DNA from: Bolinopsis microptera
Taxonomy: Eukaryota > Ctenophora > Tentaculata > Lobata > Bolinopsidae
DNA length: 60,000 bases
Direction of reading: 5' to 3'
NCBI RefSeq assembly: GCF_026151205.1
Contig: NC_087077.1
Coordinates: 5,420,483 to 5,480,482, forward strand
Part shown: one piece after another, positions 1-33,540 of the stretch
How positions within the stretch are numbered: the stretch's first letter is position 1
Layout: each line of letters opens with the position of its first letter
Translations under genes and position numbers: made by a program
Notes under the pieces: model-generated
Databases searched by the model: none
Seen by the model: the letters and a program-made list of their open reading frames with translations, nothing else
What the model was told of the DNA's origin: nothing

Positions 1-666
1 AGATAAAGGTATTCTAGAAGTCAGTTTATCCGCAAAACATGTTTTAACCTCCATATACTTACCATCGGATGCCATAGCATCTACTTCAGTACACACCAAC
101 AATCTTGTGTTGCCTATCTTTCCTTTCAAAATTTTGTAAGTGGCTTTGGTTCCAGTCTCTTTTTCCATCACAAATTCCCGAAATCTCTTGTCCCAATAAG
201 AATTTTTGAGGCCCCATGCATCTAACTTCTGTTCTACTTCATCTATTCTCCTAATGTACAACTTCCCTTTGAATTTGCAGGCTTCAAATTTCCAAGGGGT
301 TTTGTAAAAGTTGAGGTTGGTGTATCCAATATCCAATAGAACCCCTCTTTCTGTTATAACGTCAACATCAGACGTGGATTGGTAGCCGTCTTTGCTTCCA
401 TGAATCCATTTCAAGCATTTTTCCCATCGAGAAAAATAGGTTTTCCTGGAATCTACCAATAAATCTTTATTGTAACCGTCGTTCAGATTAAATGGTAGTT
501 TCAAGCTTTTCAGAGTCGACATATCTGCTTTGTTGCAATTAGTAAAGTCCCCATCCTCACCTATAGAAAATGCACCAACTTCGGCTGGTTGGTAGGTTCT
601 AAAATTCTGTAATCTCGAGTATTCTGACATCCCCTTGATGTCATACACTTTGGTATTTTCAGCCAT
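1..666 (-). CDS. DXO/RAI1-family decapping exoribonuclease paralogue, partial (N-terminal 222 codons)
   Basis: The reverse strand is open from an ATG at 666 to the window edge, so the C-terminal third is missing. The product begins MAENTKVYDI and aligns along its length with the intact copy on the other strand (2833-3867); both share a GDFxNCxKA stretch near residue 45. The DXO metal-binding motif appears as TEVDAM (E-x-D) and continues into MEVKTCF (E-x-K), the acidic and lysine residues of motifs III and IV in the DXO/Dom3Z/Rai1 family. Known members remove incomplete, non-canonical or NAD caps from RNA 5' ends and degrade the body; that function is inferred from the family. The gene is divergent to the second copy, with about 2.2 kb between starts. 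There is no internal stop, so it is probably functional. Confidence 0.85.
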   Translation of the reverse strand, partial: MAENTKVYDIKGMSEYSRLQNFRTYQPAEVGAFSIGEDGDFTNCNKADMSTLKSLKLPFNLNDGYNKDLLVDSRKTYFSRWEKCLKWIHGSKDGYQSTSDVDVITERGVLLDIGYTNLNFYKTPWKFEACKFKGKLYIRRIDEVEQKLDAWGLKNSYWDKRFREFVMEKETGTKATYKILKGKIGNTRLLVCTEVDAMASDGKYMEVKTCFADKLTSRIPLS

Positions 667-2832
667 ACCTTCTAAAGTTTATACTGTCAAGTTAGCTACA
701 TAGCATACATTACAAATGGCAGCAGTTGTGAACATTAGAAATAACAACATTATTCAAGCATGCAAAAGGAAAACTAAAAAGTTAGAAAGTTAAATTAAAG
801 ATTAGGATCATCGAATAGATTTGTTAAGCTTGATTTGATCGTCTCCCGCACAGATTTTATCGGGCGTCATTTGGATTTTATATTATTTAATTTGTGGAGG
901 ATCAACTCAAACTAATGTCGTGACTTGACGAACATGAATACCTCGTGTACTTTAGTATTACCATCGCAACGGAATTAAATGAAATCCGAATTGCAAATCC
1001 ACGCCTGTAGTTAAACAAATTAACTTTAACAATTTCAATCAATCGTCGCAAAAAAAGCTCGCACTATACAAAATACAACCGCTCAAATACTTGCCAAAGA
1101 ACATTTTCTAAAGGCTCTGGCAAATGATGAAGCAGCTTATTTGGCATAGTTGAAAGAAGTGCGTATGGTATAATTGCCCTTAGCAAAAAGTACATTGCTA
1201 CATTGGTAGATTGGTGAAATATCAAGCAAAATTCGCAGCGAAAGAATTGTTTGTTCGAACAGATATATAATGCTAATCGGACGTATCAGAGCTACTTCAG
1301 CTATTGAGTTATGTTCAATTGAAGGGTAATTAGACTGGATCTGGAGGAGTAACTATAAGGCTTACGAAATAATTTCTACCGGTATTTTGTCGAGCTGAAT
1401 ATCCTGCACCCTTTGAACATCTTTGATTTGCTTGAATCTCAAAAATGGCGAGCTGGAGGCCAGATTCACAGGTTTTAATCCGACAATTCAGAGCTAGTTC
1501 AGCTAGTGAGTTATGTCCGATTTAACTTTAGGCTAAGATTGGTCGACTGGATCTGGGTTCGAGACTCCATGTTTGCATCCTTGATACTTAACTCTAAGGA
1601 TCATAGCAATCGACGACCGCTCGAGCTTTTACCATATTTTATCGTAGTGCAATTCTAAGCCAATCCTTGCTGACCCGAGCAATAATTAATGTATCTCATT
1701 TAGCGATTCTATAATCGAGTCACAGTTAGCTTTAGAATGTATTCTTTTGATGACACTTTTGTACTTCATCATACAACTTGATAGCACATTTCTGTTACTA
1801 AGATTTCTGTTACTAAGCTTTCTGTTACTAACCTGTCATGAAACTAACAATATTATTGAAGTAAGGTTCTAAACAGGGGACAGTTAAAAACAACGCCCAA
1901 GTTGCAAGTTTGATCTCTCCCTAAACAAATATTTCTAAATGTCTAAACTTCGCTATAGTTTCTGCCAATACCTCTTGTCACTGACAGTATTAATAATTTA
2001 ATACTTTCAACACTACTATTATATACTACAAATAATTTGTGTTCTGATGAAGTGGCTGCGAAAGAGAAATGATTAACTAATTTTATCCTTCATTATTTCT
2101 GGCATATAATTTCGTTCAGCGAAGCAACTGCTAGAAGAAATATTTAACCTTCAACATGCACTACTAGAACTGTATGACTTCAATGGCTCAAACAGTTGCA
2201 ATAAGATCTAGGCTATTTCGGCTGCATTATGATAAATATAACATCGCATTATATGATATTAACATTGCATTATGATTAATATAACATTATGCCTGTTATT
2301 GTTAAGCCGTAGTACATACATATTACACTAGTCACTACGATGGAACTTACATTGCGATGAAAACTGCGATACAATGCCGCGCCTATAATTATATAATGAA
2401 TTTACTTGATGTGTGATATTTGATCCCACCGTAACTTTGGAGTCGTCTTTTATACGTGTTTTAAATGCATCCTCGGTGAAATCATCGTCATTCATATTCT
2501 GAAATCTGAATTATCTTGTATAGCAACTCGTAGCAGTCAAAAAGATCAAAGAAGTTACACTTTAATATATTTGGATGTTGAATTTGTTCATTAGTTTCAT
2601 GTGATATAATTCAATCTATGCTACACTGTAATCTATGCTACGCCTACATTGTTTGTTTTGTGTTATATGGAACAGTCATCTTCTTTATACATTTTGTCCT
2701 TCTTTCGTGATTATCACGTTGAACTTTACTCGCGTACAACAAGTACTTAGTCCATATAAAACGGAAGTTTTGAAACATTAAAGATTTACAATTTTATTCA
2801 GAGATCACAAGCTTAATCATTTCTAACACAGG
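667..2832. other. Intergenic region between the two divergent DXO-family genes
   Basis: I see no coding exon. It contains a 16-bp unit (TTTCTGTTACTAAG core) repeated three times at about 1792-1840, a diverged direct repeat (CAGAGCTA.TTCAGCTA.TGAGTTATGT) at about 1286-1320 and 1488-1522, and AT-rich short repeats (CATTATGAT-like) at 2223-2300. Both promoters must lie here. Confidence 0.6.
2755..2761 (+). promoter_or_regulatory. Candidate TATA box of the plus-strand DXO-family gene
   Basis: TATAAAA lies 72 bp upstream of the ATG at 2833, leaving room for a short 5' UTR. There is no experimental support; AT-rich DNA makes chance matches common. Confidence 0.35.
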
Positions 2833-3867
2833 ATGGCAACGACACCAGGTTACAATATTGGTGCATTTCACGAGTATTCCAAGATCCTCCATTACGCCAC
2901 CTACCAGCCTTCCGATGTTGGCTCCTTCACGGTCAACAATGAGGGCGACTTTGACAACTGTGACAAAGCTAACTTTCCAAGATTAAAGGATCTTAAATCA
3001 CCATTGAAGTTAAACCTGAATGAGGGTTTTGATCCTAAGATTATAGATAGTAAGATGCCAAGATTTCCGCACGCAGAAAAGCCCTTACGTTGGATTCGTG
3101 AAAGCAAGGATGGCTACCAGACGTTGGCTGATGTCGATGTTATCACTCAAAAGGGAGTATTCAAAACAATAGGGCACACAATAAGCAACCGGTACAAAAA
3201 CTCTTGGACGATCGAAGCTTGCAAGTATAAGGGGAAACTTTACTTGAGATTCCCTACTGAAGATAAATGGTATCGTGAAACGGAGTGGGGTATGAGGAAT
3301 TGTTACTGGGGTGTAAAATTTGAGGAACATGCCATTGAACCGGCTCCTCATGCTAAAGCGAGCTTCAAAATGCTGAAAGGCAAGATTGGTAACAAGAAAA
3401 TCTTATTGAGTGCCGAGGTGGACGCGATAAAGACGGACGGCACGCTGGTGGAGATTAAAACATGCTTTGAAGACAAGCTTACAGATCAAAAGATGTGCTT
3501 TGCGTGGCTGCAATCATACCTGGGAAATATTGATGTCCTGTACTATGGGTGGAAAAATAAGCAGGGTGTAGTTTCCAGAAAACCACAGGAGTTCAAGATG
3601 GAAAGTATACCAGGTTCTAAGCTTTTAAAAGAACCGGTGGCGAATGCAATGTTTGGCTTCATAGGTGATTTTATTGATTGGTTGTACAATGCCCTACCAG
3701 ATAGAGATGAAATCTGGTCGCTGGAATACACAGGAGGGAGACAAATATCATTTAAGTTTCACTCTGAAAAGTTTTTACCAAACTGGTACCTGCAGTTCAT
3801 TGACAGCGCAAGTGAGGATGAATTGGCTAAGCAAGTAAAGGCCCTTGATTTGAAATGTGCTCACTAG
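2833..3867 (+). CDS. DXO/RAI1-family decapping exoribonuclease
   Basis: This is an intact single-exon gene of 344 residues (vertebrate DXO is close to 400). The family removes faulty or NAD-type caps from RNA 5' ends and then degrades the RNA 5' to 3'. Visible catalytic motifs are the acidic motif II region (GVKFEEHAI, residues 160-168), E195-x-D197 in SAEVDAI, E207-x-K209 in VEIKTCF, and the following WLQSYL (Gln227), all in the family order and spacing. The ATG at 2833 is the first in frame, 72 bp after a TATA-like element. A second copy is head-to-head at 1-666. No signal peptide or membrane segment is visible, so the protein is probably nuclear or cytosolic. Family assignment is strong. 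Orthology to DXO rather than to a lineage-specific expansion is uncertain because there are at least two copies. Confidence 0.9.
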   Translation: MATTPGYNIGAFHEYSKILHYATYQPSDVGSFTVNNEGDFDNCDKANFPRLKDLKSPLKLNLNEGFDPKIIDSKMPRFPHAEKPLRWIRESKDGYQTLADVDVITQKGVFKTIGHTISNRYKNSWTIEACKYKGKLYLRFPTEDKWYRETEWGMRNCYWGVKFEEHAIEPAPHAKASFKMLKGKIGNKKILLSAEVDAIKTDGTLVEIKTCFEDKLTDQKMCFAWLQSYLGNIDVLYYGWKNKQGVVSRKPQEFKMESIPGSKLLKEPVANAMFGFIGDFIDWLYNALPDRDEIWSLEYTGGRQISFKFHSEKFLPNWYLQFIDSASEDELAKQVKALDLKCAH

Positions 3868-17717: not shown

Positions 17718-18360
17718 GTGCGAGTAAAGGGGATATGTCCGGCTCCTTCGACAGCAATGTTACTAACATTGCTTACATTTGTTGACCTTGGTTGTACAAA
17801 GACCTTTCTAGAAATCCCGTTGAAGGTTGAGCAAGTTAAACAACCATTATTCCCTGTCACTGTAGGCTCAAGTTTTGAGTTAACTGGAGTTTACAAGACT
17901 GAGCCCTCAAGTAACAGCAAGGCAAAAGTTCTCCTATACGATGATGACGGAAACCGACTATTGATATTGCAACTACGGATGAACTACGCAGCGGAACCTT
18001 TGGGGGGCAACTTTAACTACGTTTTAGTCACCAGCAATGAGCAAGTATGGAAGTATACACGCCGGAACATACAGTAAGCGGTTTGATTTACCGATGGACC
18101 TGGAAGATGGACTAGAGATTGAGATCCTGCTTGAAGTTACACAAGATACCTATGAGGTCACTATAAACGGAGTAAAGTCAACAGAGTCCATGATAAATAG
18201 CAGGGAAAATGTGGAATACTTCAAGATAAAGACATTGACGGCAATAAGTTCTCCCAGCTTCACCTTCAAGAATGTTATACAGATGGCTGAGATGGCTATT
18301 ATAGGTGAGGCAAGATTACACTTAAATGAATACTATACTACAAACATTAGCGAATTCTAA
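17718..18360 (+). pseudogene. Secreted galectin-like protein, copy 1, frameshifted
   Basis: Two overlapping frames (17718-18077 and 18037-18360) together cover the same protein as the intact copy at 31782-32360. The shift falls between about 18030 and 18075, right after the NYVLVTS segment, where this copy is also about 5 bp shorter than copy 3. The second frame resumes at KRFDLPMDLEDGLEIEILLE and runs to a stop at 18360. The N-terminus has a hydrophobic leader (MLLTLLTFVDLGC). The region may be a pseudogene, or the shift may be a base-calling error. A conserved hairpin follows the stop. Confidence 0.7.
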
Positions 18361-18364
18361 GATT

Positions 18365-18419
18365 GCTACTTATATGGTGTTGATAAAATGGGAACTTTTT
18401 CAACACTCATATAAGTTGC
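18365..18419 (+). other. Conserved hairpin downstream of galectin-like copy 1
   Basis: Left arm GCTACTTATATGGTGTTGA pairs with right arm TCAACACTCATATAAGTTGC (one mismatch and one bulged base) around a 16-nt loop containing TGGGAA. Related hairpins follow the other two copies (31271-31330 and 32411-32466). It is 3' UTR if the frame ends as drawn, or intronic if the GTGAG before the stop is a splice donor. Confidence 0.75.
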
Positions 18420-18471
18420 AATCTATATGACGTGATAATAATACTTTAATGATATTTTAACATTTTCAACA

Positions 18472-18512
18472 CAACTACAGGGGGGGGGGGGGGGGGGCCG
18501 GGGGCAACTACA
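18472..18512. repeat. G-run flanked by 8-bp direct repeats
   Basis: The direct repeat CAACTACA (18472-18479 and 18505-18512) brackets a core of G18-CC-G5. This resembles a small insertion or an excision scar with a target-site duplication, and recalls the G29 end of the 6.7-kb insertion at 24422. Confidence 0.6.
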
Positions 18513-18962
18513 ACTTCAATAATTTTTATTCACTACAACAAGATACATAATGTTTTATACAATCCAGGCTGATTTGCCAGATTTAAGAGCAGACTTTACC
18601 TGTTTTCCCAAAATTTAAACATTGAACATGCACTGTACATTACTAATATAATTGGACTCTAAAAATAGAGTTCGCTAAATGTCCTTGCTTTAATAAATAA
18701 TAATAATAAAATTTGGTAGCTTAAACACAAACTCTAAGCCCAGTGGATAAACCACAAAACTTATGCTCTATTGTGTGAAACAAAGATACTAGATCAAGAT
18801 AACTATCCAGGAGTGTATGCATAGGACATAAAAAGTTTTGGAAAGAAGATGATATGCTTATGAAGCGAGCTAACAGTCTAATTGCTAATAAGTTCAAAAA
18901 GATCATGACATTAGGTTGCATCCTAAACAGTTTAAGCAAATAACATAAAGTTATATTGTCAA

Positions 18963-19613
18963 TTAATCGCTCAAGCCATAACTTTTCTTAAACAGGTGAG
19001 TTTTTAATAATGTTTTGAACAGATCAACATCAGAACAAGTCTTAATTTCAATTGGTAGTTGGTTCCAGATTTTCGGAGCAACAGTCTGAAACGCTCTTGG
19101 GTGCGATCTTGTAGATCCGACAGGTAGGTGTAAGGAGGAAGTTCTTCTGCTACTCGAACTAACAAATGTTACTAGATCACACAGATATGCAGGAGCAACA
19201 CCATTGACTGCTTTGAAAATCAGTAAACATAGCTTAAACTCAATCCTTTCCTTCACCTTGAGCCAATGAAGGGATTTGAGCCTCTCCTCGACTGAGTCTC
19301 TCTTCTTTAATCCAAAAACCAGACGGCATGCTCGGTTCTGAATGTTCTGCAGCTGCGTAATTGAGGCTTGACTACAACCATAGTAAAGCGCATTGCAGTA
19401 GTCAAGCGATGAGATTACAATTGCTTGAGTCAGTGTTCCCATCTGTTTGGTTGTGAGGAATGTTTTCATCTTAGCAAGGTCTCTTAGTTTCAGAAAACAC
19501 GATGTTTTAAGTTGCTTGATTTGCTCACCAAAGTTTAGTTGAGAGTCGAGACGAAATCCGAGGTTCTTTGCAACAGGTGACAGCCTGACACACGTCTCAG
19601 AGTTAACAAACAC
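18963..19613 (-). CDS. C-terminal part of a LINE reverse transcriptase (216 residues)
   Basis: An open frame with the post-catalytic region of CR1/L2-type RTs: NLGFRLDSQLNFGEQI, SSLDYCNALYYG and QNIQNRACRLVFGL, ending in the WNQLPIEI...F...LK.HLF motif seen at the C-terminus of such proteins. The catalytic YADD segment would lie upstream, in the corrupted stretch. It belongs to the element annotated at 18690-23250. Confidence 0.85.
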   Translation of the reverse strand: MFVNSETCVRLSPVAKNLGFRLDSQLNFGEQIKQLKTSCFLKLRDLAKMKTFLTTKQMGTLTQAIVISSLDYCNALYYGCSQASITQLQNIQNRACRLVFGLKKRDSVEERLKSLHWLKVKERIEFKLCLLIFKAVNGVAPAYLCDLVTFVSSSSRRTSSLHLPVGSTRSHPRAFQTVAPKIWNQLPIEIKTCSDVDLFKTLLKTHLFKKSYGLSD

Positions 19614-19619
19614 GCCCCC

Positions 19620-21430
19620 CTATAGACAGCTGCTGGAGAACAAGCGGTGTCCCAAAAACAAGAATCTCAGTTTTTCCTGCATTGAGCTGTAGATAATGTT
19701 TTTTCATCCAGTCATTAATTTCTTGGAACATTTGGGAACATCGTTGATAAGGACGGTGGGCTCCTCGTTTGGCTTGAAACTTTTATACAGCTGATGATCG
19801 GTCGGCGTACCCCTGGATGGAGAAAGTTCAAATCCAAAGTGCAGCAGAGTACCAAGAGCCGAATGAAGATGTAGAAACGGACCGGACCCCCGCCACAGAG
19901 CCCTGTAGGGACCTCCAAACTTAATCACTACCTCATAAGATTCACATTTCCAACTTTAAGTTTAATCTACCGTGGGGGCGTAAACCTTTTCCCCGCTGCC
20001 CGTATTCCCCCCCATTTTAGGAGTTCAGGGGTTGCATGGTAAATTATCAAAAGTGCGCGAGATCTGAAAGAAAAACAGTTCCTTTGTTTGAGATGAAGAG
20101 CAACGTTAAACCCCAAAACCCAAGCCGGGTTCCGGGGTTTTATTGGAATCCAAAAATGCGGGGATTTTTTTTGTTTTCAAATTTTCATTTACGCCTGAGC
20201 ACACTCTTTTTAAATTTGGAAAAAAACAAAGGTTTTAGAATTTTGAAATCTTGGTTATCACTTTTAAAACCCCTGGCCCTTGATCAAGGGTTGTAACTAG
20301 TTTAGCGCCATAAATACGCCAAAAGAAAATGGTTTTTTCATGTCCTAGCAGGAGTAAACCCTCCGGTTTTTCTTTAATTTTTTGCGGTAGGGGGTAAATT
20401 AAAGAAGACTTGCTCAATCCTTGATTATTCCTCATTTTTAGATAGGGGAAAGAACTAAATTTTTTTTTTCTCCGCAGAAAAGGGGGGCTTTAAACTCAAC
20501 CCCATGAAAAAGTTATTCTATTCCCTTTATTTTTCCTAAAATACGTTAAATTTTTTTCGACTGGCCCTTGAGACCCCGGGGACAACAAACAATGTTTACC
20601 CGACAAAAAAGGTGTCCCAAATCAAAAAACCTTTTAGAAAATGGGAATTTTTGATTGGGGGGGGGTTTTTTGAAAAAATCATGTTTTTTCCTTTTGAGAG
20701 TTTCTGTGCATGCTTCTGATTGATCTGTGTTTTGTCAGTTAAAGAGGAATTTTCCCTTTGTTGGGTTTTTTTCTTTTGGCTTCAAATGCTTAATTTCCCA
20801 AAACCCAAGGGCAGACTTACGTTTTTGACCTTTGTGAGGAAGGACGGTTTATTTCAGCACATTTGGGATTAGAGTTGTATAGGCTGATGGGGGCTTTCAA
20901 ATGACGGATTTCACTTGTGATAACCCCTCGGGGACCATTACTCCCCCAATTCCCTCACCCTTTTCCCCCAAAACTTTTTTGTCAATTTTTTGACATTTTG
21001 GTAAAAACCCTTTTTTTTTGGGTTTTGAAATTGCTTGCAATTTTTTGTGAGGCTAAAAGAAAAGGGGGAAAGGTACTTTTTGGGGAACTTTTTCCGAGGG
21101 TGCGGTTACTGGGGGAATCTTTGGATTGACATTGATGGGAGGAGATTCAACATCCAGAATATTCCCTTTGGTGGTTTGGTCTCTCAGTTTTGATGCATCC
21201 ATAGGGGCCAATACTTCAGTCTTTTGGCTTTTTTCTTGATTTATTTTTACCAAAAAAATATTAAATCCCCCCAATTAAAAATTTCTTTTTATTTCATAAA
21301 TATTTTCCCCCAAAAAATTCCAAATTTAAAAAAAATAATCAGTCAATGACCTGGTGGGGAAAACACAAACACAGGGAAAGTATCACCCGAGGGGTCCCGA
21401 AATTTTTGCCCTAAAAACTGCTTCAAACTA
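19620..21430. other. Homopolymer-inflated, low-quality stretch inside the LINE
   Basis: Runs such as TTTTTTTTGGG, GGGGGGG, CCCCC and AAAAAAA occur far above their frequency elsewhere, and recognisable LINE motifs appear in shifting frames every few codons. The pattern fits unpolished long-read consensus rather than natural decay. Frames called here should not be trusted. Confidence 0.7.
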
Positions 21431-22153
21431 TCTCCACCTTAAAAAACACAAGTAAGGTTCAAATCACTAGATTGTAACATAATTCCAACTCCTCCGCCTC
21501 TGCATTTAGCGGAGTCTTTCCTGATGTAGTGAATCAAGTTATAGCCATAAGATTGATGGTTAGCAGTAACATCATCTTCATGCTGGTGAGCCAAGTCTCA
21601 GTGACAAAAGGACAGAGATTCTTTGGTCGATTATAGATTCCATGATTGGTTGAATCTTATTATGTGAGAGATACTCACATTCCCAGCAACCGCCAAGAAT
21701 CTCTGTTGGAGAGGAATTTCAGACCACTGCTTACAAGGTTTTTTTGAACTGTAGTAATTGATAGTTTTTGCGGAGATGCTGCTGTTCAGAACATAAGCAG
21801 GGACATGTCCTATCAAATGCCGTGTGTGTGTCTCTTTCATCCCGATACTTGCCCTTAGAGCAGTTAATGCAACATGGGATAAGACTATTAGTTTTCTTTT
21901 TCTGGACAATCTTCTGACGTATGATTCTTGGAACAATAACCACACAATAGCTTTTTCTGATTCACACTCCGACCTGTAGGTCCAAAAACCTTGGCATTTG
22001 TTGCATCGTTTTATATGAAATTGATCATAAACTTTGCAACTAAACGAACTGATGTATAGCCCGATCTCCCTGTTGTCTATGATTTTCCTAATATTGTTAC
22101 TAACTCGTATAGTAGCTTGATGCTTGCTGCTGTTTTGATCTGAGGTTTAACTT

Positions 22154-23073
22154 TTAGTACGGAAAATGTTTCACCCTGGGATTTTTAAATGCCTTAATGT
22201 TGGGGTGAGCTTGAAGGAGCAGGTCTTCTAGATCTTCTTCAGAATAATTATCAGCAAGGTTAGCAACAGAGATTGTGGGCAAACTTTCTGGTGGCTGGTG
22301 CGTTTTTATTTCTGGAAGTTGCTGGGATACCTTCTTGACAAGATTTTCCCTGTCAGCCGTTGTCGGACACACAACCACAATTTCCCCTTTCTTGTTGACA
22401 TACCGTTTGTCAGCATGAATGGCGTTGTCTTTGATGATTATGTCAACATCTTTGCGATCTTGATCTTGATTTTCTGGTGTTTTGCTGGACATGATTAATA
22501 CAGAGCGATATGAAGGGGCAAACTGGTGCTGGAGATGAAGGAGAAGAAATTTCAGTTATGTCTGGAGATGTTTTCATATTCACCAACTTTCATAAGTAAA
22601 CCCTTCATGTCCTCCATAGATTGGGTCAGATTATCTACTCGCCTGTCAATCAGGTCGACTTTACTTTCGGCACTGACTGCGGAGTTCTGTTCAGAGTGTG
22701 TCTTGCAGACATTACACACAAACGTAAAAGTCCAAATCTGGAAACTGTTAACACCCGTGGTTGCGTTTCTGTCGGAATATGCTTTGAAGAAAGTGCGAGG
22801 ACAGATTACATCAGTATTAATCCTATCTTTATCAGCATCTCGACAAACAGCATGAAATGACGATTTACACAAAAAGCAGGTAAGAGCAGTGTTATTAGCT
22901 TGAGCATCATTACAGGTGTTACAAGTGCCGTCTTTGATGTAGGCAAACTGGTATTGAAGAGTGTTACCTTGTCGCTGATGAGTACTTTCAGAGGATGTGG
23001 ATGAGTTCAGGAAAGGTGCGAAACGTTGCGGGGATAACATATCTTCGCTAACATTCCCGTCATTCTTTGGCAT
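22154..23073 (-). CDS. LINE ORF1 fragments with PHD-like zinc finger
   Basis: The frame 23073-22552 (173 residues) starts MPKNDGNVSE and contains a Cys/His cluster (CNTCN, CFLC, FHAVC, then CNVC) like the PHD/ESCRT-type finger found in CR1-family ORF1 proteins. The frame 22492-22154 (112 residues) continues with an RRM-like stretch (IVVVCPTTADRENLVKKV). A stop or frameshift separates the two. It is a nucleic-acid-binding chaperone by family; inactive here. Confidence 0.65.
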
Positions 23074-23306
23074 AACATCCTGTAACGAGATTGAGGACTT
23101 TAATTCTATACAGGTGCCATACTTAATGGAAATGATTATAGATCAGCCAGTCCAGAAACTAATGTTAATTGTGGAGGCTCACATAATTATACCAGTAGAC
23201 CGTCATCAAATAAGATAATTAACACAGACAGTCCCTCCCTCCCCACAGACAGTTCGTTAGAACTAGCTCCTTAGAATTGTGAGACCGAGGTAGTACCGCT
23301 GTACTA

Positions 23307-23815
23307 CCTTACAAGACATATTTATAACGAACGAAATGTGGCGGTTTTCCGAAAATTTCGCCATATTTTCGGACCGCCAAAATTTCGGTCGTCGTAATAG
23401 AATCCGTCGCATTATCTTTTAGCTTATTTCAATGACTGTGCCTTTACTGCTTTATTTTGTTTCTAAAAAGTAATATCAAGTAAAATAAATAAATAAATTC
23501 TGGCATCTTGGGACAAATTATTACCACACCAATGACAAATTGAATGTCAAGCAATACAGTTTAAATTTGCATTAAAATACATGTACTATGTGCTAACATG
23601 AAAGTCTTACAGTCTTAATACAGACTAAGTTTGAACATGATTTTACCGAATTTCAGAAATTTCCTTACTGCTTACTGTCACAAAAAATGATTAACAATAC
23701 CCTTATTTTCTGTGACGTCCGAAATTTGACGGTTTTTGTTCAATTTCGCCATATTTTCGGACCGCCAAAATTTCGGTCGTCGCAAATTGGTCCGCCACAA
23801 AAAAGTCTTGTAAGG
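23307..23815. mobile_element. 509-bp MITE with CCTTACAAGAC termini and TA duplication
   Basis: The ends are perfect inverted repeats (CCTTACAAGAC ... GTCTTGTAAGG) flanked by TA on both sides (23305-23306 and 23816-23817), as for Tc1/mariner-type MITEs. Inside, a segment of about 45 bp (TTTCGCCATATTTTCGGACC and onward) occurs twice in direct orientation, near each end. No coding sequence. It sits about 100 bp upstream of the galectin-like copy 2 start. Confidence 0.8.
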
Positions 23816-23828
23816 TATATAATATAAA
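23815..23828 (+). promoter_or_regulatory. Candidate TATA element of galectin-like copy 2
   Basis: GTATATAATATAAA begins at the exact right edge of the MITE and lies about 92 bp before the ATG at 23920. If used, the MITE directly abuts the core promoter. Confidence 0.3.
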
Positions 23829-23919
23829 GAACTACTCCTTAACTAACCACTTGAAAGTTTCATTCTGGCCCGGTGGTTTTAGTTTCTGTCAGTGTCCTTG
23901 GAAGGAATCAGTTCTATAA

Positions 23920-24421
23920 ATGTTGCTAGCACTTGCATTATTAACATTTGTTGGTCTTGTTAAATCTTTGAACTTTCTGGAGGTCCCACTGAAGGTTGAT
24001 AATATAGAAGAGCCTATTTTCTCTGTTGGTGTGGGCACAAGATTCGTGTTCTACGGAGTTTATGAGAGCGAACCTTCGAGTGAACATTTAGCCTCGGTTA
24101 GGTTATATGACAGTGCAAGTAATAAAGTGTTCGTATTGCAACTGAGGTTTAACTACAGAGAAGCACCTTATGGAAGCGAGTTTGATTACGTCCTAGTCAG
24201 CAGTTGGTATAATGGTACCTGGGCAGTAAAGCTCAAGAAAAGATATAGCTTTCCGATGGACCTGGAAGATGGACTAGAGATTGAGATCCTGCTTGAAGTA
24301 ACACAGGATACGTATGAGGTCATTATAAACGGAGTAAAGTCAACAGAGTCCATGATAAATAGCAGGGAAAATGTGGAGTACTTTAAGAGCAAGAAAATAG
24401 CAGTAAAAAGTTCTCCCAACT
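23920..24421 (+). pseudogene. Galectin-like copy 2, 5' part, interrupted by a 6.7-kb insertion
   Basis: The frame starts with a strong leader (MLLALALLTFVGLVKS) and follows copies 1 and 3 through FLEVPLKV, LQLRFNY and FPMDLEDGLEIEILLEVTQD to KSSPN. At 24421 the coding sequence meets 29 consecutive G residues; the frame continues as polyglycine into non-homologous DNA and stops at 24543. The missing C-terminal codons (NFTFKTAIQMTKIGE) are found at 31162-31210. The gene is split by an insertion, with CCCAACT duplicated on both sides. The N-terminal half differs from copies 1 and 3 more than the C-terminal half does, which suggests an older duplication followed by gene conversion. Confidence 0.8.
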
Positions 24422-24559
24422 GGGGGGGGGGGGGGGGGGGGGGGGGGGGGTCCAACCCGATCATTCCGATCATTCCGATCCCGATTTTGGCCTCATCAAC
24501 CCTCATATCGGAAAAATCGGGAAAATTTAAATCTTCCCTCTGAGGTTTCTAGGCGATAT

Positions 24560-25110
24560 AGGTAGCTATTTCTGTACTTAAATATGACAAGAAATCGATT
24601 GGTGGTGGTCCCAGAATCCCAAAATGGTTTCTTGTTCCAAACAAGAATTGTTTCGTCCGAAAATCAACACATTGTCGTATCAACTCTTGTTTGACAGAAA
24701 CATCCACCCCGGTCCACAATTGAAACTTTGAAAGAGGTACGGTTGGTAATTACAATCGTAACAAATAGCGAACACTTTAGTAACTTTTGATTTAAATTGT
24801 CTCCACAATTTGTAACAGGCTATCTGCAGAAATGGGTAGCACGGTTAATGACCATGGTCCTTTCTCAAACTTCCAATCCTCAGTTAGATACAAAGAATAG
24901 TCTACACAATTTTTAATAACATTAAAAGGGATGAAAATCACTTTATTTGTCAAAATCTTTATTTATCATGTACCAACTTTTCCATAGTACTGGAGAGTAA
25001 GACTCTGTTAAACAACAAAATTCTCGAGCACATTTTGAGTCAGTAACAGTAACATGTCAATATGTTACAGACTCAAATGCGTTTAAAAACATTTTAGTAA
25101 CAATAAATTG
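24560..25110. other. Non-coding left part of the insertion
   Basis: Unique-looking AT-rich sequence between the terminal repeats and the purine satellite. No coding frame was recognised. Confidence 0.4.
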
Positions 25111-25114
25111 TGTA

Positions 25115-28100
25115 AACTGATGAAGAGGAGGAGGAGGATTGAAGAGGAGGAGGACTGAGGAGGAGGAGGAGAAGGAGGAAGACTGAGGAGGAGGAGGACT
25201 GGGGAGGACTGAGGAGGAGGAGAAGGACCGAGGAGGACCGAAGAGGAGGAGGACTGAAGAGGAGAGGGAGGACTGATGAAGAGGAGCAGGATTGGTGAGG
25301 AGGAGGAGGAGGAGGAGAAGGAGGAGAAGGAGGAGAAGGAGGAGGACTGAGGACGGGGAGGAGGAGGACGACGACTAAGAGGACGCGAAGACTAAGGACG
25401 AGGAGGAAGACGAGAGCGAGGACGAGGAGGAGGACTGAGGAGGAGGACTGATAAGAATGAGAAGGAGGAGAAGGATGAGGACTGAGGATGAGGAGAAAGA
25501 GGTCTGGAGGAGGACTGATGAGGAGGAAGACTGGGGGAGGACTGAGGAGGAGGAAGATGACTAAGAAGGAGGATGAGGAGGAGGACTGAGGATGAAGAGA
25601 AGGAGGACGAGGACGAGGAGGAGGACTGAGGATGAGGAGAAAGTCAGAAAGAGGACTGGAGGAGGACTGATGAGGAGGAAGACTGGGGGAGGACTGAGGA
25701 GGAGGAATAGGACTGAGGAGGAGGAGAAGGAGGAGGACTGAGGAGGAGGACTAAGAATGAGAAGAAGGAGGAGGAGGATGAGGAGGAGGACTGAGGATGA
25801 GGAGGAGGAGAAAGTCAGAAAGAGGACTGGAGGAGGACTGATGAGGAGGAAGACTGGGGGAGGACTGAGGAGGAGAAGGAGGAGGACTGAGGAGGAGGAG
25901 GAGGAGGACTAAGGAGGAGGACTTAGGAGTAAGAGGAGAAGGAGGGGAAGGAAAAAGAGGACTGAGGAAGAGGAGGAGGAGGACTGAGGAGGACGAGAAA
26001 AACTGAGGAGGAGGAGGAGGAGGAGGATGAGGAGGAGGACTTACGAGTAGGAGGAGGACTGGGGACTGGGGAGGAGGAGAACTGAGGAAGAGGACTGAGG
26101 AGGATGAGGACTGAGGAGGAGGAGAAGGAGGAGGACTGGGGAGGACTGAGGAGGACTGAGGAGGAGGATGAAGAGGAGGAGACTGAGGAGGAGGAGGATG
26201 ATGAGGAGGAGGACTGACGAGTAGGAGGAGCACTCAGGAGGACTCAGGAGGAGGCCTGAGGAGGTGGAGGAGGAGGAGTCAAGAGGAGGACTGAAGAGGA
26301 GTAGGAGGACTGATGAGGAGGACTCAGGAGGAGGAGGAGGAGGAGGAGGAGGAGGAGGACTAAGGACGAAAAGGAGGACGAGGACGACTATGTGGAGGAC
26401 TGAGGATGAGGACTGATGAGGAGGACTCAGGAGGAGGAGGAGGAGGAGGAGGAGGACTAAGGACGAAAAGGAGGACGAGGACGACTGAAGAGGAGGACTG
26501 ATTAGGAGAAGGAAGAGGAGAAGGAGGAGGAGGACTGGGGGAGGACTGGGGGAGGACTGAGGAGGAGGAGGAGGACTAAGGAGGAGGATAAGGAGGACGC
26601 AGGAGGAGGATGACTCAGGAGGTGCAAGAGGATGAAGAGGAGGACTCAGGAGGAGGACTGATGAGGAGGAGGAGGAGGAGGACTCCAGAGGAGGAGGACT
26701 AAGGACGAAAAGGAGGACGAGGACGACTATGAGGAGGACTGAGGATGAGGACTGAGGATGAGGACTGATGAGGAGGAAAAGGAGGAGGAGACTGGGGAGG
26801 ATCAGAAGGAGGACTGTTGAGGAGGGGGAGGAGGATGATGAGGAGGACGAGGACGAGGACGAGGAGGATGAGGACGAGGAGGATGAGGACGAGGAGGATG
26901 AGGACGAGGAGGATGAGGACGAGGAGGATGAGGACAAAAACTAAGGACGAAGAGGAGGAGGACGACTGAGGAGGAGGACTGATTAGAAGGAGAAGGAAGA
27001 GGAGAAGGAGGAGGAGGATGAGGAGGAGGACTGAGGAGGAGGAGGAGAAGGAGGAGAATGAGGAGAGTGAGGAGGAGGAGGAGGAGGAGGACTGGGGGAG
27101 GACTGATGAGGAGGAGGAGGACTCAGGACGAGGATGGAGAGGACTCAGGAAGAGGATGACTCAGGAGGAATCAGAAGGTGGAGGAGGATTCAGAGGAGAA
27201 TTTAAAGGAGGAGGACTCAGGAGGAGGCCTGGAGAGGAGGAAGACTGAGGAGGACGAGGACTAAGGACGAGGACGACTGAGGAGGACTGATAAGTAGGAG
27301 AAGATTAGAGGAGGATGAGGACTGAGGAGGAGGAGAAGGGGGAGAATGAGGAGGAGGAGGAGGACTGGGGGAGGACTCAGGAGGAGGAGGGGGACTCAGG
27401 AGGAGGATAGAGAGGACTCAAGAGGAGGATGACTCAGGAGGACTCAGGAGGTGGAGGAGGATCAGGAGGAGGACTGGAGAGGAGGAAGAGGACTGATGAG
27501 GAGGACTAAGGACGAGGATCAGGAGGAGGACGAGGACGACTATGAGGAGGACTGAGGATGAGGACTGATGAGGAGGAGAAGGAGGAGGAGGATAAGGAGG
27601 AGGAGGACTCAGGAGGATGAATCAGGAGGAGGAGAAATCAGGAGGAGGACTCAGGAGGTGGAGGAGGATGAGGAAGATGACTCAGGAGGAGGACTGATGA
27701 GGAATAGGATGAGGAGGACTCCAGAGGAGGACTGAGGAGGAGAAGGACGAGGAGGACTAAGGACGAGGACGACTGAGGAGGAGGACTGATTGGGAGAAGG
27801 AGGAGGATGGGGAGGAGGAATGAGGAGGAGAAGGAGGACTGGGAGTAGGACTGAGTAGGACTGAGGAGGAGGAGGGGGACTGAGGAGGAGGGTGAGGAGA
27901 ACTCAGGAGAAGGAGGAGGACTCAGGATGAAGGCTTAGGAGGAGGAGGAGGACTGATGAGAAGGAGGAGGACTCAGGAGGACTCAGGAGGAGGCCTCAGG
28001 AGGTGGAGGAGGAGGAGTCAAGAGGAGGACTGAAGAGGAGTAGGAGGACTGATGAGGAGGACTCAGGAGGAGGAGGAGGAGGAGGAGGAGGAGGACTAAG

Positions 28101-28590
28101 GACGAAAAGGAGGACGAGGACGACTATGTGGAGGACTGAGGATGAGGACTGATGAGGAGGAGAAGGAGGAGGAGGAGGAGGACTGGGGGAGGACTCAAGA
28201 GGAGGAGGAGGACTCAGGAGGTGGAGGAGGAGGAGTCAAGAGGAGGACTGAAGAGGAGTAGGAGGACTGATGAGGAGGACTCAGGAGGAGGAGGAGGAGG
28301 AGGAGGAGGAGGACTAAGGACGAAAAGGAGGACGAGGACGACTATGAGGAGGACTGAGGATGAGGACTGACGAGGAGGAGAAGGAGGAAGAGGAGGACTG
28401 GGGGAGGACGACTATCAGGGGAGGAGGACTGATGGGGAGAAGGAGGAGGAGGATGGGGAGGAGGAATGAGGAGGAGGGGGACTGAGGAGGAGGGTGAGGA
28501 GGACTGAGGGGAAGGAGGAGGACTCAGGAGGAGGAGTAGTCAGGAGGAGGACTGAAGAGGAGGAGGAAGACTGAGGAGGACATCTAAATG
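25115..28590. repeat. 3.5-kb (GGA)n-type homopurine satellite
   Basis: The plus strand is overwhelmingly A and G in GAGGAG/GAGGACTGA units. Higher-order blocks of about 200 bp recur almost verbatim: around 26243-26420, 27970-28160 and 28205-28370 each run GGTGGAGGAGGAGGAGTCAA, GAAGAGGAGTAGGAGGACTG, GACTAAGGACGAAAAGGAGG and GACGAGGACGACTATG in order. An 18-bp tandem (GAGGATGAGGACGAGGAG) lies at about 26840-26935. Long reverse frames here encode Ser/Pro/Leu-rich repeats and are artefacts of composition. Confidence 0.95.
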
Positions 28591-29189
28591 TTTTGTCTGT
28601 TTTTGTCCGTTTTTGTCCGCCCTACGTTTTGTCCGTTTTGAAAATATAGGGCATAGTACCCAACGGACACAAAACATGATCCCCCAGCCAAACATGTGTT
28701 ACGATACAAATGTACTTGACTATACATTTAAGGTGCAGTGTACTAGTGATAGTATGGTATGTTTAAAGACCAGACCACAAAATATAACCCGGTACCTAGT
28801 GTTGTACTAATACATAATAACAAGTAACAGGGATAAAATTAATGAGCCGAAACAATCGATCTCACGTCAAGAGGCCAAAGCACTCGGGTCTGGGAGTACA
28901 TGACAACTCCAACTAGTAATGAGCATACTAGCCCCTGCAGTGGAAAACACTCTCTCTCTCTCTCTCTGTTTTGGTCAACGGTTTCTGGCCTCCTAGTGAA
29001 GAGGGAGGCCTTCTCGCCGTGCCCACAGAGTGTGACTCCTGCTAGCCACACTCCAGGACTCCCTAAGTATATACAAAAACATAGAATAATAGATATCAAC
29101 GCAACAGACCTCTGGAGTCTCGAAGCTGTTACTACCTTGCTCAGAGCAAACCCACTTCAGATGTTCTTCTTTAGCGGGCAGGCGAGGGA

Positions 29190-29960
29190 CTTCCGAGCAT
29201 GGTCCACACCTGAATATGTATCACTATCTGAGATAGTCCTGTGTGGGTCTAGTGTATGATTGTTTATGAACCTTGGTGTATGTCCTAGATGCTTATCCAA
29301 ATAGATCGTCTCTGTCAAACCTTGTTGACTGTTCCACGAATTTGATAATGTGGTCGAGTTTACTATTGATGGGTTCCTCAATTGTTAGGATGGGTTTACC
29401 AAATATCCTCATTCTAGTTGTCATCAGCTGGATGCATTCACATAGGAAGTGTTGTGATGTTTCTGCTTCCCCTGGGCACTGTTCACAGTCTTGTGTTTCG
29501 AAATTGGAGTTGTTTGCTAACGTCTGGAAGTATGCTAGTGGGCTGTGTCCTGATAGTAGCCATGTTAGCCATCTGATGTGAGTGCCTAGCCTGTGATGTT
29601 AATTTTCTTGTACCTGTTTTTGTTGAGGAAAAATGTTAGTGGGGGTTTTCCTTTATCACTGAGTGCCACCTGTTTAAACTTCTTGATAAGGAGATTGAAG
29701 AGATAATCTTTTATTTGGGTGTTGATTATAGTTCTTTACCGTATACTCCTTCATGTCCTGGAACAAAGTTCTACTCGATGAGAAAACCTAGCGAGTTGAG
29801 TTGGTCTGAGATGTTCAGAACGAACCTGGAGTTAAAATTGGTGCTGTTAAGCGCTTTAAATGCAGCCTGGGAATCTGAGAGGAATTTATGATTGATTGAG
29901 ATCCTAAGTTATATCATTAGTCCAGATACTTGCCATGTATAACGCAAATAGCGGGTACGA
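29190..29960 (-). pseudogene. Non-LTR retrotransposon RNase H / C-terminal remnant
   Basis: Reverse-strand translation gives FLSDSQAAFKALNS (RNase H motif with the catalytic Asp), FVPGHEGVYG (the WVPGHxGIxGNE motif), then HIRWLTWLLSGHSPLAYF and a CEQCPGEAETSQHFLCEC finger, ending FVEQSTRFDRDDLFG and a stop at about 29290. This is the C-terminal order of RNase-H-bearing LINEs of the I/Jockey/R1 type. At least one frameshift (near 29600) and an in-frame stop disable it. It is nested in the 6.7-kb insertion. Confidence 0.75.
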
Positions 29961-29969
29961 TTTCCTCAA

Positions 29970-31030
29970 TGAACCTGAAGAAGGAATATCTGTCCTGAAT
30001 TGATAACATGTAACGTCGAGCTTAAAAATGAATCAAAAGTTCGAGTAAATCGTTAAACGTTGTATGTCCTATTTGCATCCCCTAAGCATTGCATTGATGT
30101 TTATTCCTGGTCCGGTTAGCTTTGCGTCTCAGAACTAAAGAGGTCCACTATGCTTTAATGAGCTAAGCTGTCCACCAGGGTACTGTAGATCTAAGGGTTC
30201 CCCGTGTAATGGGGCAGGCTGTGATAAAGCATCTCTGTAGGATGTCCAAGATGAACTGATTCGAGTGTTGAGAACTTCCGCTGTAGAAACTGAATAGAAC
30301 CAGAAAGGATGTCAGTCAAACTCTGCTGCTACTAGATGATTGTAGAGCGTCCAGTCAAACTTCAATAAAGAGTGTGGCAAAGCTAACCCGGTCCCCTGAA
30401 AAGTGATTACTGGAGGAAGAAGTGCCAGGAATTCTCGTTATCAGTGTGTCCTCGTAGTCAGAGTTGAAATCCCTAATTCTGTCTTATCACGAGCCTGTGT
30501 CTAGCGTGTGTCAGCCCTTACGCATTAGCTGTCTTAACTGAAAAGACCTGAAAAGTGGTTACTGGAGAGAGAAGTGTCAAGACTACTCATTATCAGTGTG
30601 TCCTTGTAGTCAGGATGAGCGAATTGGAATCCCTAGCTCTGTGGTGGGTGACTTCGATGGGACCTGAAAGCTGAAAGAGAATTTCCTGGTGATTTAATAG
30701 CTCTTAGAGCTAGGTATCTGTGTCTAACGTATCGTCATTTGTGTGTGTACTATCTTGTAACCTGATAACTGAAAGAGAAATTTCCTGGTGCTTGGTAGCT
30801 GTTATTGTTGACTTCCTGGTTCCCATGGGAACTTTGAGTTGGCAAGTCCCAACCTTAGTACTCAACAAGAGAGCACACCACCCGTTAGTGCCAACCAGGC
30901 CACACCACGTGGAGGTTCGGAGAGGATTTCGTGACCCCAGTGGAAAACACATTAAACATACTATTGGAATGTCCAATTGGTTCGTTTTCTCATAACAATA
31001 TAGCATATGTAGGGGTTCTGGTTGAATTAT
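29970..31030. repeat. Right interior of the insertion with a diverged tandem duplication
   Basis: A segment of about 100 bp (TGAAAAGTG.TTACTGGAG, then TTATCAGTGTGTCCT.GTAGT) occurs at about 30398-30480 and again at 30549-30640. A second pair (CTGAAAGAGAA.TTTCCTGGTG) is at about 30670 and 30768. No coding frame was recognised. Confidence 0.6.
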
Positions 31031-31161
31031 ATCACTTCTGAGAGGTCTTAGAGATCGATTCTGTTAAATTTCTCAATTTTCCGATTTTTCCGATTTTTCC
31101 GATTCCGATTTTGGCCTCATCAACCCTCATATCGGACATCGGGTTGGACCCCCCCCCCCCC

Positions 31162-31210
31162 AACTTCACCTTCAAGACTGCCATACAGATGACTAAGATA
31201 GGTGAGTCAA
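31162..31210 (+). pseudogene. Galectin-like copy 2, displaced 3' end
   Basis: Immediately after the C-run the sequence encodes NFTFKTAIQMTKIGESI and a stop, colinear with the C-terminus of copies 1 and 3 and continuing from the SSPN at 24420. It is the remainder of the gene split by the insertion. The conserved downstream hairpin follows at 31271. Confidence 0.8.
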
Positions 31211-31270
31211 TTTGATTTAAATGATTTCTGATAAACACTTAAATAGTAAATTAAGAGTGATTTCATAATA

Positions 31271-31330
31271 CACTTATATATTATGGAGCTGATAAATTGG
31301 GAAATTTGTCAGCACACAATATATAAGTTG
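31271..31330 (+). other. Conserved hairpin downstream of galectin-like copy 2
   Basis: ACTTATATATTATGGAGCTG, followed by ATAAAT, pairs with a right arm ATTTGTCAGCACACAATATA then TAAGT. The stem is longer than in copy 1, and its inner part (GCTGA/TCAGC) replaces the GTTGA/TCAAC of copy 1 with pairing kept. The loop again holds TGGGAA. Confidence 0.75.
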
Positions 31331-31387
31331 TAATTAATCATATATTTGTTTTTAAAAAGTTGTAAAAAAATAGGGCTTGTCTCTTAG

Positions 31388-31412
31388 CCCCCACCCCCCC
31401 CCCCCCCCCCCT
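31388..31412. repeat. C-run
   Basis: CCCCCACC followed by C to give 19 consecutive C at 31394-31412, between galectin-like copies 2 and 3. No clear direct repeat flanks it, unlike the run at 18480. Confidence 0.8.
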
Positions 31413-31781
31413 CTGCCTTAAAACTCTCCATTAAACACATGGTCCCGTTAACGCCCTTGTATTCCACCTCACTAGCTCTTTTAACAACATTGCAAGACTA
31501 AGAACTCCTACGTGTGGTTTCTGAACCATCACAGCATTAAGCATGTAAAGGCTACCTAGTACTCACATTGGTTAGACTGTACTAATGTTATTGATAAAGA
31601 TAAAAATACCTCGTGTCAGGAAGTAAAGCAGTATTGTCACGAGGGTACTGATCTGTAATAGCATTGTTCAACCACACGTACACTGAGCTCAGTAACGCAC
31701 CCTTCGTCAGAGAGCAGATAGATTCGTTTACTTTTACTTTTCGTCTGCTTCTTTTCTAGCAATTGGAAACTGGAGGACGCT

Positions 31782-32360
31782 ATGCTACTACTACTACTTG
31801 CATTATGTGCATGTCTTGGTCTTGGAAGATCACAGATCTTTCTAGAGATCCCGTTGAAGATTGAACAAGTTAAACAACCAGTATTCCCTGTCACTGTAGG
31901 CTCAAGATTTGAGTTTACTGGAGTTTACAAGATTGAGCCCTCAAGTAACAGCAATGCACAAGTTCTCCTATACGATGATGACAGAAACCAACCATTGATA
32001 TTACAACTACGGATGAACTACACAGCGGAACCTTTGGGGGGCAACTTGAATTACTTTTTAGTCTCCAGCATGTATGGAAACAAATACGCCTCCGCATCAG
32101 ATTTAGACTTCGAGAAGCGGTTTGACTTTCCGATGGACCTGGAAGATGGACTAGAGATTGAGATCCTGCTTGAAGTTACACAGGATACCTATGAGGTCAC
32201 TATAAACGGAGTAGAGTCAACAGAGTTCATGATAAATAGCAGGGAAAATGTGGAGTACTTCAAGATAAAGACATTGACGGCAATAAGTTCTCCCAACTTC
32301 ACCTTCAAGACTGCTATACAGATGGCTGAGATGGCTATAGGTGAGGCAAGATTACAATAA
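31782..32360 (+). CDS. Secreted galectin-like protein, copy 3 (intact, 192 residues)
   Basis: The product begins with a clear signal peptide (MLLLLLALCACLGLGRS). The rest is one beta-rich domain with galectin-like pattern: VTVGSRFEFTGV (strand after the N-terminal segment), LQLRMNY where galectins have the LHFNPRF strand, and FPMDLEDGLEIEILLEVTQD then YEVTINGV, corresponding to the galectin FPF..G..FEI.I....D.F.V.VNG core. The His, Asn and Arg residues that contact galactose in classical galectins are not obvious, so sugar binding is uncertain. GGNLNY and SSPNFT offer possible N-glycosylation. The sequence just before the stop (ATAG|GTGAGG) looks like a splice donor in all three copies, so the true C-terminus might be in a further exon. 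Confidence 0.6.
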   Translation: MLLLLLALCACLGLGRSQIFLEIPLKIEQVKQPVFPVTVGSRFEFTGVYKIEPSSNSNAQVLLYDDDRNQPLILQLRMNYTAEPLGGNLNYFLVSSMYGNKYASASDLDFEKRFDFPMDLEDGLEIEILLEVTQDTYEVTINGVESTEFMINSRENVEYFKIKTLTAISSPNFTFKTAIQMAEMAIGEARLQ

Positions 32361-32410
32361 ATTGCACAACAAAATCCTTAATAATTACTTAAAAATTGTA
32401 ATTCTGAAAT

Positions 32411-32466
32411 TGCAACTTATATGTTGTCGATACATTGGGAATTTTGTCATCACTCATATAAGTTGT
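32411..32466 (+). other. Conserved hairpin downstream of galectin-like copy 3
   Basis: A perfect 11-bp inverted repeat CAACTTATATG (32413-32423) and CATATAAGTTG (32455-32465) brackets a 31-nt loop containing TGGGAA. The inner stem seen in copies 1 and 2 is weaker here. It starts about 50 bp after the stop. Confidence 0.75.
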
Positions 32467-33540
32467 TATGTTCAAACCTTAATTACAGACTAGTATCATG
32501 ACTCGACTTAATATCTTAAACGTACCTTCTTAGTTACCAGGGTTGAATATTATTGTGTATTTCAAATAAATTTAACAAATAACAAATATTTTTCGATCGA
32601 CAATATCGTACACATCACCCCCCTAGGTCAGTAATTACAACATTCACCAGAACTAACCCCTTCATTAGGCCCACACTTCCGTCGGATCACTCTATCCAAT
32701 CATACGGACTGAGAAAAAATACTCCATTGTATTTCCAGTAATAGACAACATCCCCAGGCCATAATATGACTATCCAGGGTCAGGAAGAGCCTAAAGACCT
32801 GCTCTTAAAATAAACCATTAGAACGCTCTACTACCTCTTTATCTTTATATCTTTAAAATTTTCGTTTCATTGAAAACTAAATCGTTAGTGTACAAGTAAA
32901 CAGGATGAAGCTCTGTCTACAAGACGTGTACGTGTTGCCGTTATCAACTCACGAGCATAACAACTCTACAAGACTAAAGATTATTAGACCATCTAGAGCA
33001 CTAGTGACCAGTGCGTAAAAAGAACTGACGTTATTTTGGAGTATTATCTAAATCTTGCTTTTGCTCTACGCCCTTAAAACGCATCATTTTTGATAAACCT
33101 GGAAGATGAACTGAAGATTGACATCCTACTAGTTAAAGTTCTCAGTTGAAGATCATGATGAGAGACCAATGGTAAGCCGAATGAAATTAGAACAGTTTGT
33201 GATACATATAAATGGCTGACAATTTTTGCGGATCGTTCAAGATATGATGGTGAATATTTCCTGGTGGTTAGTTAGCCAAGCTATTGCCACCAATTACTCA
33301 GAACGCAACTTTGCAATGACTAAAATTAGTGAGCCGTCATTATAAACCTATCATTGATTTAGAAATGAACAACATAACAGTCAACAGATGAACGTTAATT
33401 ATAAACTTGATTAATATTAATTATAAATATTAAAGTTGCAGTTATCTTTATTTACGAATAGCCCCCTTATTTAAGTATTTAATAGCTAGGCCCATGAAAA
33501 ATAATTAGAAAATACGTTCATCATTCATATTATATATAAT
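32467..33540. other. Intergenic region with a decayed galectin-like relic
   Basis: Mostly non-coding. At about 33098-33150 the sequence ACCTGGAAGATGAACTGAAG plus ATTGACATCCTACT matches the GACCTGGAAGATGGACTAGA region shared by the three galectin-like copies. This is a fourth, badly decayed copy or fragment. Confidence 0.55.

Follow-up and report, generated by a model that had tools for sequence, protein, structure and literature searches.

The 60,000-nucleotide (nt) stretch of the ctenophore Bolinopsis microptera analysed here (contig C6, positions 5,420,483-5,480,482; hereafter, the window) carries three galectin-like gene copies, each followed by a short hairpin that is the subject of this study (Table 1). 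The hairpins are real: sequence inspection and folding recovered the three stem-loops, their arms and their TGGGAA loop as a first-pass annotation of this DNA had described them, together with the arm pairs GTTGA/TCAAC and GCTGA/TCAGC and the TATATATT/AATATATA arms of copy 2. Two features were absent from that description, namely a conserved GGTGAG ahead of each window hairpin, which we refer to as the donor-like site, and the splitting of copy 2, a single exon, by a 6.7-kilobase (kb) insert. The hairpin is about 60-63 nt in size and retains a conserved apex composed, in order, of GTGNTGATAAA, a loop holding GGGA, and TTTNTCANCAC. Within the window, ACTTATATG occurs five times, against 0.70 expected from shuffles, and copies 1 and 3 contribute four of these five occurrences, as their arms. 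Across the eight family members that we found in the genome, the loop reads TGGGAA in seven and TGGGCA in C1, which also has an extra base facing the usual 3' bulge (by eye). Their fold energies lie 3.1 to 8.5 standard deviations below 1000 mononucleotide shuffles each, with window copy 3 and C6b folding most weakly (z -3.1 each) and C5 and C8 at z -6.8 and -6.3, respectively. In seven of the eight, which are not independent copies, folding is better for the sense strand than for its reverse complement. A scan of the window against Rfam release 15 returned 0 matches at the gathering score.

Five of the eight hairpins lie elsewhere in the genome, of which 264,652,675 bases in 232 contigs were searched; counts from the pattern searches are lower bounds. 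A degenerate pattern of the apex, allowing up to three mismatches, returned 13 rows, of which the eight with 0-2 mismatches are the eight hairpins, so that no hairpin appeared outside the galectin-like subfamily at this level of the genome search. The five rows with three mismatches comprise the opposite strand of C1 and four places elsewhere, three of which belong to one same repeat. A covariance model scored these four places at 15.1-18.0 bits, against 46.2-87 bits for the hairpins; given that seven of the eight went into its construction and C1 did not, only the score of C1 is independent (46.2 bits, E-value 8e-08). Further, an exact search for CTTATATG, 28-40 bases and CATATAAG found copies 1, 3 and C6c along with two unrelated near-perfect palindromes (C10:3793634-3793677 and C11:6269443-6269489), which share the CTTATATG ends and have a different apex, and the control search, with the pattern read backwards, gave two matches per strand.

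All eight hairpins sit at members of a single galectin-like subfamily. Specifically, a search of the genome with the copy 3 protein gave nine stretches representing seven loci (the three in the window, C6b, C6c, C5 and C1, the last being the most distant, at 50% protein identity), while C8 keeps a 75-nt N-terminal coding part before its donor-like site, the remainder being gone. The seven loci found by protein and C8 therefore make eight subfamily loci, with which the eight hairpins coincide. A genome search with the family PF00337 revealed 35 galectin stretches, all on contigs numbered 13 or lower, of which three belong to this subfamily (copies 2, 3 and C1, which exceed the PF00337 cut-off). 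Among the 32 stretches outside the subfamily, 28 loci were tested (four were not cut out separately), and the hairpin was found at none of the 28 (covariance model, E-value up to 10, about 1.5 kb on each side).

The place of the hairpin within these genes is equally regular. Counting from the nearest preceding G/GTRAG (the slash marks the putative exon end), the apex GATA follows at 72-89 nt in all eight copies, and the hairpin starts about 51-67 nt inside the segment opened by this site. The context is AG/GTGAGG or AG/GTGAGT in six copies, CG/GTAAGT in C1, where the codon is changed and the donor retained, and GG/GTGAGT in C8, where a large deletion precedes the site, which may be fortuitous. 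The open frame of copy 3 runs past its donor-like site to a stop at 32358-32360. Because a donor-like site stands at similar spacing before all eight hairpins, the evidence leans, short of proof, towards the hairpin lying in an intron rather than in a plain 3' untranslated region (UTR).

Table 1. Features of the window (window coordinates) and hairpins found elsewhere in the genome (contig:position). Limits of the window hairpins are those given by the covariance model.
Feature	Position	Strand	Evidence or remarks
Hairpin copy 1	18358..18427	+	87 bits (copy used in model building); fold -30.1 kcal/mol, z -8.5
Hairpin copy 2	31267..31339	+	60.1 bits (copy used in model building); z -7.1; 3-nt ATT/AAT extension in both arms, by eye
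Hairpin copy 3	32405..32474	+	77.9 bits (copy used in model building); z -3.1
Galectin-like copy 1, coding remnant to donor-like site, frame broken	17757..18304	+	copy 3 protein match in two frames, the second with one TAG
Donor-like GTGAGG, copy 1	18305..18310	+	sequence
Galectin-like copy 2, first exon part	23921..24421	+	BLAST to copies 1 and 3, protein match
Insert splitting copy 2	24422..31160	+	G-run/C-run ends, inverted GTCCAACCCGAT, CAACT on both sides
Galectin-like copy 2, exon end	31161..31201	+	sequence, BLAST
Donor-like GTGAGT, copy 2	31202..31207	+	sequence
Galectin-like copy 3, open frame to donor-like site	31782..32340	+	PF00337 23.9 bits, cut-off 22.1
Donor-like GTGAGG, copy 3	32341..32346	+	sequence
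Hairpin C6b	C6:11325893		genome search
Hairpin C6c	C6:8454782	-	genome search
Hairpin C5	C5:8341244		genome search
Hairpin C8	C8:5282363	-	genome search
Hairpin C1	C1:8915180		genome search

Beyond this regular placement, the hairpin is conserved above its flanks. We compared the segment before the hairpin, the hairpin itself and the 60 nt behind it in the 28 pairs of the eight copies, taking the best of 40 shuffles as the threshold. The hairpin was 69-90% alike and above shuffles in 28/28 pairs, while the segment before it exceeded shuffles in 6/28 (2 ties at printed precision) and the 60 nt behind it in 1/28 (2 ties); the apex alone was alike at 23-27 of 30 positions across the 28 pairs. Coding sequence was compared in the ten pairs formed by five in-frame copies (window copy 3, or c3, C6b, C6c, C1 and the first part of c2). 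Here, the hairpin differed less than both the whole coding part and its four-fold sites in nine of the ten, the exception being c3-C6b (coding 15%, four-fold 7 of 55, hairpin 22%). Hence, the proposal of the first-pass annotation that the hairpin is under constraint appears sound, and its conservation relative to flanks and four-fold sites would be better evidence for selection than covariation, the ground on which that proposal had been made.

As a sign of structural selection, covariation is suggestive at best. A first alignment, of seven copies and with the outer arms of copy 2 and C6b misplaced, gave a number of double-change pairs not above shuffles (244 of 500 column shuffles reached it), and the observed score and paired cells were reached by 73 and 82 of 500 shuffles, respectively; slid controls fell far below in paired cells and score, but a 3-column slide exceeded the double-change pairs (5 vs 3). 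In a second alignment, made by hand from eight copies and 23 pairs, the null was obtained by redealing changes on a tree that has two unresolved forks and in which C8 was placed by hand. Against this null, 163 of 177 cells paired, where 154.9 were expected (P=0.031), and 150 were Watson-Crick, where 142.0 were expected (P=0.051). The paired extension of copy 2 and the filled bulge of C1 (by eye) agree with kept pairing and stand outside the test. Weighing against an RNA structure, full double changes occurred at only 2 of the 23 pairs, against 0.7 expected, which is not significant alone (P=0.139), and the two pairs concerned are themselves imperfect, p4 being non-pairing in two of eight copies and o9 in one of seven. 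Further, G-U cells numbered 13, against 12.9 under the null, and the strand test of G-U against A-C showed no excess. With double changes at P=0.14, and with their count in the first alignment reached by 244 of 500 shuffles and exceeded by a slid control, the earlier argument from paired changes to structural selection is not supported in the form in which it was made.

Considering its placement and conservation, the hairpin is probably a working regulatory element. Specifically, we tentatively favor, at a little short of an even chance, an RNA stem-loop that carries GGGA in its loop and would govern, in cis, the processing of its segment. Such a stem-loop would belong to one galectin-like gene subfamily and lie in the segment, putatively an intron, that follows the conserved donor-like site. 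Its conserved apex would probably be read by an RNA-binding protein or act on the donor, so that splicing of the segment, or its retention as a 3' end, could be controlled.

Several observations count against this RNA stem-loop reading. BLAST between copies found no conserved exon behind the hairpin, homology between most copies ending at the hairpin itself (only c1-C5 and c3-C6b extend clearly further), and acceptor-like AGs behind the hairpin are unaligned even between copy 3 and C6b (by eye). Since the end of the galectin domain is close to the donor, the conserved I-G-E/K codons there could be coding, and the site itself may be protein sequence. Four of the eight hosts look broken (copies 1, 2, C5 and C8) and have nonetheless retained the hairpin, which fits poorly with a role serving the protein alone; the alternatives are that the breaks arose recently and that the hairpin is retained for its own sake. 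In the cases of copies 1 and C5, which match the copy 3 protein in two frames with stops, an assembly error is possible. Finally, relative to the last 210-column exon block, the hairpin was less alike in 14/21 pairs, and it differed more than the four-fold sites of that block in 13/21, although the block may have been homogenized between copies. In c1-c3, the exon block is 97% alike and the hairpin 82%; for C6b-C5, likeness is 82% in the segment ahead of the hairpin and 77% within it. Because these close pairs go the opposite way, constraint is evident between distant copies but not between the closest ones. We did not lower the likelihood of the RNA stem-loop on account of the exon-block result, as the whole coding part gives the opposite indication.

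The palindrome might instead act as DNA, namely as a symmetrical transcription-factor or enhancer site (TGATAAA...TTTATCA) for which RNA pairing would be irrelevant. Such a site would account for the survival of the hairpin in broken copies, and it is consistent with an apex that is a near-perfect palindrome with GATAA/TTATC arms and with a sequence conserved more than its pairing. We nevertheless consider it unlikely, given the paired extension of copy 2, the filled bulge of C1, the better folding of the sense strand and the position after a donor-like site. Pairing could also be kept without structural selection if template switching during replication recopied one arm from the other, a hairpin-maintaining mechanism described by Monttinen and Loytynoja 2022 (PMC8794818). 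The hairpins so maintained resemble those studied herein in that their arms change together, and the mechanism yields double changes like those seen at one or two pairs. However, it leaves unexplained the likeness of the apex amid flanks mostly at shuffle level and does not account for the conserved loop and spacing, and we regard it as improbable. Shared ancestry alone, under which an ancestral palindrome would simply not yet have decayed in the duplicates, strikes us as quite improbable. The short branches of c1, c3, C6b and C5 (0.056-0.16), the partly decayed hairpins of copy 3 and C6b, and the comparison with the four-fold sites of the last exon block speak for it, but the flanks of c2, C1 and C8 stay within shuffles in every comparison, C6c rises above them only when paired with C6b, and the comparison with the whole-coding four-fold sites runs contrary to it.

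A further option, to which we give only a small chance, is that the hairpin is a small structured RNA hosted in an intron and serving a function separate from that of the galectin protein, in a lineage without a Drosha pathway. C8 bears on this: most of its coding part is gone and its flanks are at shuffle level, yet its 11-pair apical stem is fully Watson-Crick, and its hairpin is 83-87% alike to those of c1, c3, C6b, C6c and C5 and 74-75% to the other two. A precursor of a microRNA, mirtron or other Dicer-made hairpin RNA is very unlikely. The hairpin does have a fitting size, about 60 nt, in a presumed intron, and a Dicer-like frame exists, but a genome search with PF00636 found no more than two RNase III stretches, which share a frame, and no Drosha was seen (intron-split domains could be missed by this search, which did not cover Pasha). 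In the portion available to us, PMC3563456 reports neither Drosha nor functional mirtrons in the ctenophore Mnemiopsis, and the single RNase III frame seen here agrees with the same state, Dicer being present and Drosha absent. Moreover, the loop is conserved while stem positions vary, the hairpin ends are not at the donor, and no Rfam family was matched in the window. Hardly credible, in turn, is a miniature inverted-repeat transposable element (MITE) carried along by chance, the alternative that the first-pass annotation had itself raised. The hairpin is palindromic, about 63 nt long and found in dispersed places, as a MITE would be, but pattern search, BLAST, protein match and covariance model agree in placing all eight genome copies at galectin-like sequence with similar spacing. 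As no copy was found away from the subfamily at two or fewer mismatches, and as the four 3-mismatch places score far below the hairpins, a free-standing transposon is not supported.

Other identities were considered and set aside. A canonical microRNA is unlikely because the only two RNase III stretches share one Dicer-like frame and because the loop is conserved; an arm would be expected to be conserved above the loop, while TGGGAA is kept in 7/8 copies and both arms vary. The two stretches fall at C2:9738852-9740081 in a single open frame of 1626 amino acids, which is Dicer-like, and no second enzyme was seen. A box C/D small nucleolar RNA was suggested by GTGATGA, which resembles box C in C6b and C8; the other six lack it (by eye). 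A selenocysteine insertion sequence (SECIS) and a spliced-leader RNA were dropped by eye. A 17-letter pattern was matched by 14 stretches of viral contigs, and 13 of the 14 gave a weak model match (maximum 21.2 bits, E-value 0.05), which we take as chance.

Copy 2 and the surroundings of the galectin-like genes present several further features. The insert of copy 2 holds a minisatellite of GAGGA-type units (about 25120-28575). In window 24250-24421, the later part of the copy 2 exon, identity to copy 1 is 90%, against 66% in the earlier part, and c2 and c3 differ by 9% in the last exon block and by 39% in the first two thirds; the later part of the exon thus resembles a tract of gene conversion ending short of the hairpin. 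Behind hairpin copy 1, window 18472-18512 contains G18-CC-G5 with CAACTACA on both sides; it resembles a tiny insert whose target was duplicated, perhaps a remnant of a G-run element like that of copy 2. Window 32-679 and 3091-3845 match DNA beside C6b, on the same contig, at 74% and 67% (L005 3205-2561 and 2832-3583), and the neighborhood seems to have been duplicated along with the galectin-like gene. Downstream of the C1 galectin copy (L020 2968-3500), a frame contains repeated cysteine-rich units resembling ShK domains (by eye). Window 20000-21400 is rich in homopolymer runs and resembles poorly polished assembly (by eye).

If the hairpin is indeed a working RNA element, it would represent a lineage-specific processing signal common to a dispersed gene family in a ctenophore without an apparent microRNA route. 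Its eight copies, four of them beside broken-looking genes, amount to a natural experiment on which of the two is kept, the hairpin or the protein. Among the literature matches listed on ctenophore galectins and conserved intronic hairpins, none was seen to describe this hairpin. With respect to known systems, the host genes are like the galectins of PF00337 in matching that family above its cut-off and differ from them in an N-terminus that looks secreted (by eye); solved galectins gave no significant match to the host protein (best Galectin-10, E-value 0.57). Conserved stem-loops of introns and UTRs that control splicing or stability form a general class. The hairpin described herein differs from it in having no Rfam family match in the window, and it resembles that class in being short, in lying near a donor-like site and in the conservation of its apex and loop.

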